A stretch of DNA of 64,000 nucleotides from Phormidesmis priestleyi ULC007 (lineage in GTDB: Bacteria > Cyanobacteriota > Cyanobacteriia > Leptolyngbyales > Leptolyngbyaceae). Under the pieces are notes generated by a model that saw only the letters and a list, made by a program, of their open reading frames with translations, was not told the origin of the DNA and did no database searches. The position numbers were made by a program, and so were the translations under genes. How positions within the stretch are numbered: the stretch's first letter is position 1; each line of letters begins with the position of its first letter. Positions 51,035 to 53,395 of this stretch are shown piece by piece. The stretch spans positions 62,001 to 126,000 of the forward strand of contig NZ_MPPI01000010.1 of NCBI RefSeq assembly GCF_001895925.1. Direction: 5' to 3'.

Positions 51035-51051
51035 TATCCTAAAATAGGATA
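51035..51051. promoter_or_regulatory. C-box-like palindrome upstream of the methyltransferase gene
   Basis: TATCCTAAAATAGGATA is a 17-base perfect palindrome centred on AAA, 40 bases before the methyltransferase ATG. Its 15-base core matches a site upstream of the controller gene at 53365-53379 in 14 of 15 positions when reversed. It probably binds the controller protein and may repress or balance the methyltransferase. Confidence 0.7.
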
Positions 51052-51090
51052 AATTTGCATAAGTCATAGTTTGAAGAGCCGCAAGGATCA

Positions 51091-52179
51091 ATGAGCCGAT
51101 CTAATCCAGAAGTTAGTTCTACAGAAACTTTGAAATGTAATGCTGCCAGTACAGTTGGTCGCGGAAAAGTCGTTAATCTAAACACCAAACTTAACTTTTC
51201 TGACTGGAGCGATGAATACGTTGCTTTATCTCTAGGTAATAGCCTTGAACATTATAAAAACTGGGAACAGCCTACTGTAATCGTTTCAGATGGCGCTTAC
51301 GGTGTTCTAGGTTTTGAAGGAGACACATCCGATCACATTAATTTACCCAATTGGTATCAACCTCATATTGAGGAGTGGTCGAAAGCGGCGATGCCGTGTA
51401 CAACACTCTGGTTTTGGAACTCAGAAATTGGCTGGGCTACAGTACATCCAATTTTAGAAAAGTGTGGTTGGCGATATGTTAATTCCAATGTCTGGAATAA
51501 AGGCAAAGGTCACATCGCAGGAAATGTTAACACAGAAAAAATTCGCAGATTCCCAGTTGTTACAGAAGTCTGTGTTCAATATGTAAGAGAAGTTAGGTTT
51601 GACGAACTTCCCTTAAAAACTTGGTTACTGAAAGAATGGAAACGGTCTAGATTGCCGTTACGACGAGCAAACGATGCTTGTGGTGTAATGGATGCCGCCA
51701 CCAGAAAATATTTTGATCAAGGACATTTGTGGTACTTTCCACCCCCAGAAATGTTTGAAAGACTAGTAATTTATGCAAATGAGCATGGTAGCCCTGAAGG
51801 AAAACCTTATTTTTCTATAGATGGCAATCAATCTTTGACAGGGCAAGAATGGAGTAAAATGCGATCGAAGTTTAAATGCCCTCATGGTTTTACTAACGTA
51901 TGGGAACGCCAAGCCTTGCGAGGTGGTGAAAGAGTTAAAACAACCTCTGGAAAAGCATTACATCTTAACCAAAAGCCCCTCGATTTAATGAGCATGATTA
52001 TCGAGTCATCAAGTGATAAATATGATGCAGTCTGGGAACCCTTTGGAGGACTGTTTAGTGCATCTTTGGCAGCCCGGAAACTCAACCGGAAAGCTTACTC
52101 TTGCGAGATTGATCCAGACTATTTCTACTATGGAGTCCAGCGATTTAATCAAGAAGTTCATCAATACTCTCTTCTCTAA
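51091..52179 (+). CDS. DNA methyltransferase of a type II restriction-modification system
   Basis: A 362-residue amino-methyltransferase of the beta type. The catalytic motif near residue 66 reads VSDGAYGVLGF, in place of the common DPPY or SPPY. The C-terminal half has the NQKPLDLM motif and the SAM-binding motif DAVWEPFGGLFSASLAA, then CEIDPDYF. The intervening region holds the probable target recognition part. Base target (N6-A or N4-C) and specificity cannot be assigned. AAGGA lies five bases before the ATG. The end overlaps the tail of the nuclease gene by 35 bases. No full HIP1 site was seen in the gene. Confidence 0.88.
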   Translation: MSRSNPEVSSTETLKCNAASTVGRGKVVNLNTKLNFSDWSDEYVALSLGNSLEHYKNWEQPTVIVSDGAYGVLGFEGDTSDHINLPNWYQPHIEEWSKAAMPCTTLWFWNSEIGWATVHPILEKCGWRYVNSNVWNKGKGHIAGNVNTEKIRRFPVVTEVCVQYVREVRFDELPLKTWLLKEWKRSRLPLRRANDACGVMDAATRKYFDQGHLWYFPPPEMFERLVIYANEHGSPEGKPYFSIDGNQSLTGQEWSKMRSKFKCPHGFTNVWERQALRGGERVKTTSGKALHLNQKPLDLMSMIIESSSDKYDAVWEPFGGLFSASLAARKLNRKAYSCEIDPDYFYYGVQRFNQEVHQYSLL

Positions 52180-53062
52180 CGTCTAAATGCTTCTCTAGAG
52201 ATTGTGTGATTCTGTCTTCTCGGCGGCTTGACAGAAGTTTGTTCCATTGTCCAACTGTCATCCCAGAAACTTCAACATTGTAAACACGTTTCTTGAATTC
52301 CTCAATGCCAGGATGCACGATTCTATCCAACTTCGCAAAGTTAGTGTCTAGTCTATATCTGTAGCATATTAATAACTCCCGTAGAAGGTGCTGATATTCT
52401 CTAGTTGGCTTGTAGATTTTGGCTTCAGCACCCCAAGAATCAACCATTTTTTGCGCCTCTAAAAGCTCATTCACAGAACCTTGAAACTTGTAGCCACTCG
52501 TGTTTGTTTGCTGTAGATTTGCTGTTCTTTGGGTTGTATCTTCTGGTTCTAAAACAAGATAGCCGGGCGGATTGTGGTAATGAGTATCTCTAGCCAGAGC
52601 TACTGACAAGCCGGATACGACGCACACATCTAAAATGCGAGGCTTCCCATAAATAATTTTCTCAGGTAGCCATGCCAACATCACAACGTGAGTTTGATCA
52701 AACTGAAAGTGATTCTGGCTATCTTTGAATCGCGCAGTTATCTCTGTCGCCAACGGAAACCATGCTTTAATTTCTAACCCTGGTGTTGGTTGAATATTTC
52801 CCACGAAAATAGTGTCTGGGAATCCCGGATCTTGCCTCTCCCACGTTCCAAATTCAGCAAAATCATTCTGCTTATTTAAGAACTCAACAGTGTTAAATTC
52901 GATTAAGTTTCCTAGTAACGGCGAAAGCTTCGAGATTACTTTAGCTAAATTGACTGCTGCATTTACAGTCACGGGTTTAGATACGTCTAAAACATCAAAT
53001 GTGTGTCCTGCTAAATCGTCTAAATATTGAGAGGCTAATCTGATGACATCTGATGTGTTCAC
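52145..53062 (-). CDS. type II restriction endonuclease, PD-(D/E)xK fold
   Basis: A 305-residue protein next to a methyltransferase gene. A PD...E-x-K pattern is visible: FPDTIFVG (Pro82-Asp83), then GLEIKAW (Glu97, Lys99), the metal-binding core of restriction nucleases. I do not recognise the specificity family. Its start overlaps the controller gene stop by four bases (ATGA type), so the two are translated from one mRNA. Its 3' end overlaps the methyltransferase 3' end. Identity as the nuclease rests on context and this motif. Confidence 0.8.
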   Translation of the reverse strand: MNTSDVIRLASQYLDDLAGHTFDVLDVSKPVTVNAAVNLAKVISKLSPLLGNLIEFNTVEFLNKQNDFAEFGTWERQDPGFPDTIFVGNIQPTPGLEIKAWFPLATEITARFKDSQNHFQFDQTHVVMLAWLPEKIIYGKPRILDVCVVSGLSVALARDTHYHNPPGYLVLEPEDTTQRTANLQQTNTSGYKFQGSVNELLEAQKMVDSWGAEAKIYKPTREYQHLLRELLICYRYRLDTNFAKLDRIVHPGIEEFKKRVYNVEVSGMTVGQWNKLLSSRREDRITQSLEKHLDVREESIDELLD

Positions 53063-53322
53063 GGTTTTTCCTCACAAGATGCCTCAGCTATTTGTTGTTC
53101 AACCTTCCTAATAAGGGTGCAAGGGTCTATGCCAATGATTCGAGTAACTACGAGAAACTCGACGACATCTAAACGTCGCTCACCATTCTCATATTTAGCA
53201 ACGAAAGATTGAGGTTTTTGAAGAGATTTAGCGAGAGACTCCTGAGTGAGTTGTGCTTCTTTTCGAGCCGCAATCAGACAACGTCGGAATATATCGTACT
53301 CATAGCTGGAGGTAAATTTCAT
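53059..53322 (-). CDS. XRE-family controller protein of the restriction system
   Basis: An 87-residue helix-turn-helix protein, the size of the C proteins that time restriction enzyme expression. The HTH is QLTQESLAKSLQKPQSFVAKYENGERRLDVVEF, at about residues 22-53. It precedes and overlaps the nuclease gene by four bases, the classic C-R order. Two dyads lie 43-73 bases before its start and a third near the methyltransferase start. It most likely represses at high concentration and activates C-R transcription. Confidence 0.85.
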   Translation of the reverse strand: MKFTSSYEYDIFRRCLIAARKEAQLTQESLAKSLQKPQSFVAKYENGERRLDVVEFLVVTRIIGIDPCTLIRKVEQQIAEASCEEKP

Positions 53323-53364
53323 CGTGCTTTGAATTCAGCACTACGGATATACCAGGTACGATAA

Positions 53365-53379
53365 ACCTATTTTAGGATT
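53365..53379. promoter_or_regulatory. C-box-like operator 1 of the controller gene
   Basis: AACCTATTTTAGGAT is, reversed, 14/15 identical to the palindrome core upstream of the methyltransferase gene. It lies 43 bases before the controller start on the minus strand. Confidence 0.7.
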
Positions 53380-53380
53380 A

Positions 53381-53395
53381 TCCCAAAACTGGATG
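53381..53395. promoter_or_regulatory. C-box-like operator 2 of the controller gene
   Basis: ATCCCAAAACTGGAT matches the consensus ATCCTAAAATAGGAT at 12 of 15 positions. Its centre is 16 bases from that of operator 1. Tandem sites of unequal match are typical of C-protein control regions. Confidence 0.6.

Follow-up and report, generated by a model that had tools for sequence, protein, structure and literature searches.

A restriction-modification module of the cyanobacterium Phormidesmis priestleyi ULC007 contains three matching 15-bp dyads, one before the methyltransferase gene (M) and two before the controller gene (C). The dyads are very probably the binding sites of the 87-residue protein C, and together they would form a circuit of the Esp1396I kind (OM, OL and OR) that belongs to a distinct XRE subfamily with an operator class of its own. 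The initial annotation had already proposed a controller-operator set for this module, a proposal that is supported by the module genes, the conservation of the dyads and the covariation of the dyads with residue 46 of C. The module lies in a window of 64,000 nucleotides, the whole stretch of DNA that was analysed (contig NZ_MPPI01000010.1, positions 62,001 to 126,000). Its features are listed in Table 1.

Table 1. Genes, predicted operators and inverted repeat of the module, in positions of the window.
Feature	Position	Strand	Sequence	Description	Match
OM	51036..51050		ATCCTAAAATAGGAT	predicted single 15-bp operator before M; centre 48 nt upstream of ATG	
M	51091..52179	+		362-aa N6/N4 DNA methyltransferase	Pfam PF01555 (N6_N4_Mtase), E 2e-16
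R	52145..53062	-		305-aa type II restriction endonuclease, GTG start	PADLOC REase_II PDLC03583, E 2.4e-47
C	53059..53322	-		87-aa XRE-type controller; recognition helix 38-45; predicted specificity residue N46	HTH_3
Inverted repeat	53324..53341	-	GTGCT-N8-AGCAC	ends one base short of the C start codon; -7.7 kcal/mol, z -2.6 in window	
OR	53364..53378		ATCCTAAAATAGGTT (minus strand)	predicted promoter-proximal operator before C	14/15 reverse-strand copy of OM
OL	53380..53394		ATCCCAAAACTGGAT	predicted promoter-distal operator before C	12/15 copy of OM

C and the restriction endonuclease gene R form an operon that is convergent with M (M > < R < C), and the 3' ends of R and M overlap by 35 bp. 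The stop codon of C overlaps the start of R (GTGA), and the same gene order was found in about 25 relatives. R has the motif PD-x13-E-x-K (P82, D83, E97 and K99), which was invariant in 10 relatives. M carries a motif I-like WEPFGG near its C terminus and shows the motif order of the beta class. S66, D67, G68, Y70 and G71 as well as P317, F318, G319 and G320 were invariant in nine relatives of M. Its motif IV (residues 66-71) is a variant with SDG(A/G)YG instead of DPPY/SPPY, and this variant is invariant in relatives down to approx. 55% identity. The R family is patchy, with 11 out of 386 cyanobacterial genomes containing a member. No such module is present downstream of the same neighbour gene in a genome of the same genus (L117), which suggests that the module is mobile. 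Two modules are decaying: in one (L025), M is split by about 126 bp and R has internal stops, while R is interrupted by about 1 kb in the other (L031).

As is typical of C proteins, the gene of C precedes the endonuclease gene in one operon and overlaps it, and tandem inverted-repeat sites lie upstream of it. The AlphaFold (AF2) model of C has a pLDDT of 90. Its nearest PDB entry is 3f6w (Z 13.1), and the model fits C.Esp1396I (Z about 12, rmsd 1.3-1.7), C.BclI and C.EcoT38IS, so that C, a small HTH protein of the XRE type, is modelled with the fold of C proteins. The inverted repeat next to its start codon may be a leader hairpin that limits C translation. Paired repeats of unrelated sequence also end close to the C start, at a distance of one to a few bases, in Afipia and in four further loci (L070, L076, L098 and L099). 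Signs that suggest a hairpin were thus seen in many relatives as well as in the window, but since the hairpin is broken in several others (L036, L048 and L045), a conserved RNA leader element before C is not claimed.

The palindromes and the 16-base spacing described in the initial annotation could be read directly from the sequence, including the 14/15 reversed copy upstream of C and the second 12/15 site, while its coordinates were shifted by +1. The centres of OR (53371) and OL (53387) are 16 bp apart, and 40 bp separate OM from the ATG of M. OR is the less symmetric site: its coding strand reads ATCC...GGTT, and a conserved TTTAT comes next. With 12 of 15 matching positions, OL would be unremarkable if it stood alone; it is backed by its position beside OR and by the conservation of the pair in relatives.

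This conservation, for which the initial annotation had suggested a motif search upstream of C homologues, was evident both before C and before M. The same layout with the dyads was found in approx. 25 cyanobacterial modules, and conservation was measured on 28 non-redundant C promoters and 17 non-redundant M promoters aligned on the sites. The 31-bp OL-OR block was 93% conserved in the 28 C promoters, compared to 45% over 35 bp on its upstream side and 57% on its downstream side. Likewise, OM was 93% conserved in the 17 cyanobacterial M promoters, with 52% and 54% in the flanks. The symmetry of the outer pairs (of 4) decreased from OM with 4.00 to OL with 3.93 and OR with 2.89. The M operator is gone in two modules, one with C missing (L027) and one with a truncated C that keeps OL-OR (L032); as both belong to one lineage of the same genus, the loss counts as one event. 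M also lacks a recognisable operator in L053 and L057, in which C is present, and in L070, L076 and L100, and the operator is weak in L041.

To extend the comparison beyond cyanobacteria, 84,980 species were scanned with the C alignment, which yielded 80 loci with 78 usable upstream regions. A perfect tandem A[AT]CC-N7-GG[AT]T pair was located upstream of 54 of these 78 C relatives and a pair with one mismatch upstream of 10 more, whereas none of 1559 control windows had fewer than two mismatches to it. The centres were 16 bp apart in 55 relatives and 15 bp apart in 12. Judged by sequence, C can be assigned to a widespread subfamily marked by PQSFVxKYExGERRLD, with two 15-bp A[AT]CC-N7-GG[AT]T dyads 15-16 bp apart as predicted operator. 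Its members precede the R family also in assemblies of Chloroflexi, Gemmatimonadota and planctomycetes, and other members are followed by BamHI-like (Pfam E 1e-54) or BglII-like (PADLOC E 1e-55 to 1e-69) endonucleases. Of 24 additional modules, which have different endonucleases, 19 possess a single perfect dyad near M, compared to 83 of 1437 control windows (5.8%); the 24 include several close relatives and are not fully independent. The 7-kb plasmid pAV7K of Aeromonas veronii (L137, NZ_CP080631.1) carries the full module with identities of 61% for R, 62% for M and 45% for C. Two dyads abut each other before its C gene, and a third is located where M starts. Its R is annotated merely as hypothetical protein. 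Among phage genomes, the only candidates for C relatives were weak matches in Streptococcus suis phages.

C relatives also occur in C-REase fusions or without restriction genes. In three loci (L064, L100 and L113), the C-type HTH is fused to about 200 further residues beside a convergent methyltransferase-like gene; these are likely C-REase fusions of a family without Pfam hit. No restriction genes lie close to approx. a quarter to a third of the 80 relatives and, therefore, the use of this operator class is not limited to the control of restriction. Tandem operators in such a setting were observed in Afipia and its relatives (L075, L081, L086, L097, L101, L102, L105 and L112), where a short conserved gene and a gene resembling site-specific recombinases lie downstream of several of the C relatives.

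Among the characterised systems, Esp1396I resembles the module in its co-transcribed C and R, in the two operators before C and the one before M and in the small XRE dimer fold. Classic C dimer sites lie about 4 bp apart on opposite faces, which gives a centre spacing near the 16 bp found here (PMC4321490). The sequence identity, however, is only 14-18%, and the half-sites A[AT]CC-N7-GG[AT]T differ from the GACT-type boxes of Esp1396I. C.Csp231I and C.EcoO109I (motif 8, CTAAG-N5-CTTAG) share 15-bp dyads with an A-rich centre and a non-GACT operator (PMC3115060, PMC4824078), but they have other half-sites and two extra C-terminal helices, and the edges of their dyads are separated by 18 bp compared to 0-2 bp (mostly 1 bp) here. 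C.Kpn2I likewise resembles general XRE regulators more than classic C proteins and has an AT-rich site centre, but this site is located within the C.Kpn2I gene itself, where it acts as an elongation roadblock (PMC6237814), while the sites described here are upstream of the gene. The nearest solved relatives by sequence are 3f6w (45-48% identity), 3eus (38-41%) and C.EcoT38IS (2ef8, 29-33%), all of which share the ERRLD segment with C in the alignments. C.EcoT38IS has QSDISKIESF in its recognition region, and its sites probably differ for this reason. The operators of these three proteins were not found in the literature searched. The C.EcoT38IS peptide had no match in phages, and all its plasmid matches were below 60% identity.

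Neither a GAC..GTC pair (GACT type of PvuII, AhdI and Esp1396I, GACTnnnAGTC-like) nor CTAAG-N5-CTTAG (motif 8 of EcoO109I and Csp231I) is present in the two promoter regions and, thus, the operator differs from both types of boxes. This agrees with the initial annotation, which had set the sequence apart from GACT...AGTC C-boxes. Its further suggestion of another operator class holds with respect to the GACT type and motif 8, while other classes among the ten C-operator motif classes that were predicted in 2009 (Sorokin et al., as cited in PMC6237814) may include it. No paper with the letters of the dyad was found in the literature searched, a body of papers that describes only the GACT type and motif 8 among these classes.

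In Esp1396I, C binds OM at the methylase gene and OL/OR at C and R with very different affinities (PMC3758141), OM being the highest-affinity and OR the lowest-affinity site (PMC3758141; PDB title 3ufd). In general, a low level of a C protein leads to activation and a high level to repression (review in PMC12707154). By analogy with such systems, we infer that C binds as a dimer with an affinity order OM > OL > OR, that it activates through OL and represses through OR and OM, and that the timing results from this. Upon entry into a naive host, M would be transcribed at once, while C would accumulate slowly from a weak promoter until its dimer occupies the better site OL and boosts the C-R operon. 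At a higher C level, the weaker OR would be filled and shut down the C-R promoter, and occupation of OM, the most symmetric site, would hold down M. Filling of OL and then of OR and OM would therefore delay the nuclease behind the methylase and subsequently cap both. No sigma-70-like consensus promoter was found at either operator, so that the operator positions relative to -35 and -10 are guesses. Promoter geometry was therefore not used to tell activating from repressing sites, and it could be OR, not OL, that activates.

It is possible, though considerably less probable than not, that C is a plain autorepressor which limits itself, R and M with neither an activating step nor a timed switch. 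The quarter to third of relatives that have no restriction genes nearby still possess the upstream pair, some relatives keep one site only, and the proximal site could simply block the promoter. The difference in symmetry between OL and OR argues against such a simple role, as does the match of two sites before C and one before M to Esp1396I, where C both activates and represses. The lack of a consensus promoter before C would also be expected if activation is needed, but it is no proof of this.

The half-sites bear on whether C itself reads the dyads. They come as ATCC...GGAT or AACC...GGTT, and the column of C that tracked them best was residue 46, directly after the recognition helix, with Arg accompanying AACC/GGTT and Asn, Gly or Ser accompanying ATCC/GGAT. 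The rule tested assigned AACC/GGTT or mixed sites to R46 and ATCC/GGAT to any other residue. It was correct in 43 of 46 non-redundant genome loci (Fisher 1.2e-9) and in 18 of 19 non-redundant held-out viral-contig loci (p 1.2e-4); the latter is the fair figure because the rule was found in the genome loci. The tree used to count changes left out the recognition region; it shows 10 changes for each trait and 13 for the joint label, a number that could have reached 20 if the traits were independent. The comparative sequence data thereby support the dyads, their positions, their conservation, their co-occurrence with C relatives and the covariation of residue 46 with the half-site.

These results make it very improbable that the dyads are read by an unrelated host or phage regulator or by the methyltransferase instead of C. 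Some methylases do repress their own promoters (PMC9757035), but the dyads travel with C relatives across phyla beside non-homologous methylases and nucleases, are also found in loci that have no methylase, and vary with a residue of C. That the promoter match is a coincidence or a recent duplication of promoter DNA is hardly credible: the 15-mers are AT-rich and 130 places in the 5.68 Mb genome match with up to 3 mismatches, but OM and OR alone match within one mismatch, and conservation at the orthologous positions does not extend into the flanks. In the window, 6 matches with up to 3 mismatches were counted compared to 1.6 expected, and none of 100 shuffles reached 6. As OM and OR, both in the module, are the sole 0- and 1-mismatch places in the genome, the 15-mer is not widespread; it was a wide occurrence in the genome that the initial annotation had named as evidence against its proposal. 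A host regulator and a chance repeat were accordingly discarded on the genome-wide count and the cross-phylum conservation.

A second XRE controller was observed in the same genome (L034, G000:C106, 5189-5443). The genes after it encode an HNH-like protein of 360 aa and, in convergent orientation, a methyltransferase of 663 aa. The helix of this controller is TQSIISKCERGERR, and the dyads AGTCGAAATTGGACT and ATTCCAAAATAGACT lie upstream, 15 bp apart. Dyads of the type AGTC-N7-GACT or ATTC-N7-GACT together with a TQS(F/I)ISKCERG helix are common to L034, L033, L180 and L196. Since this type and C are both present in the Phormidesmis genome, one cell contains two controllers of one geometry with different half-sites, and L034 is apparently an orthogonal controller-operator pair. 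On balance, we favour with some reserve the broader view that these controllers represent an undescribed class, in which a single XRE subfamily, with members in many phyla, on plasmids and in viral contigs, would control at least four non-homologous endonuclease families via A[AT]CC-N7-GG[AT]T, and in which the code of R46 versus N, G or S46 and the helix change associated with AGTC-N7-GACT would keep co-resident controllers apart, as in this genome.

For the module itself, the dyads are very probably the predicted switches by which C has the protective enzyme made before the DNA-cutting one. Related C proteins cross-activate incoming systems and can render restriction-modification systems mutually exclusive (review in PMC12707154), so that the operator code decides which systems can be present together in one cell. 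With a DNA preference that is predictable from one residue and a controller joined to unrelated nucleases, this question of cell sharing becomes directly testable. The subfamily offers orthogonal switches, and its motif can be used to find controllers that are now annotated just as 'helix-turn-helix transcriptional regulator'.
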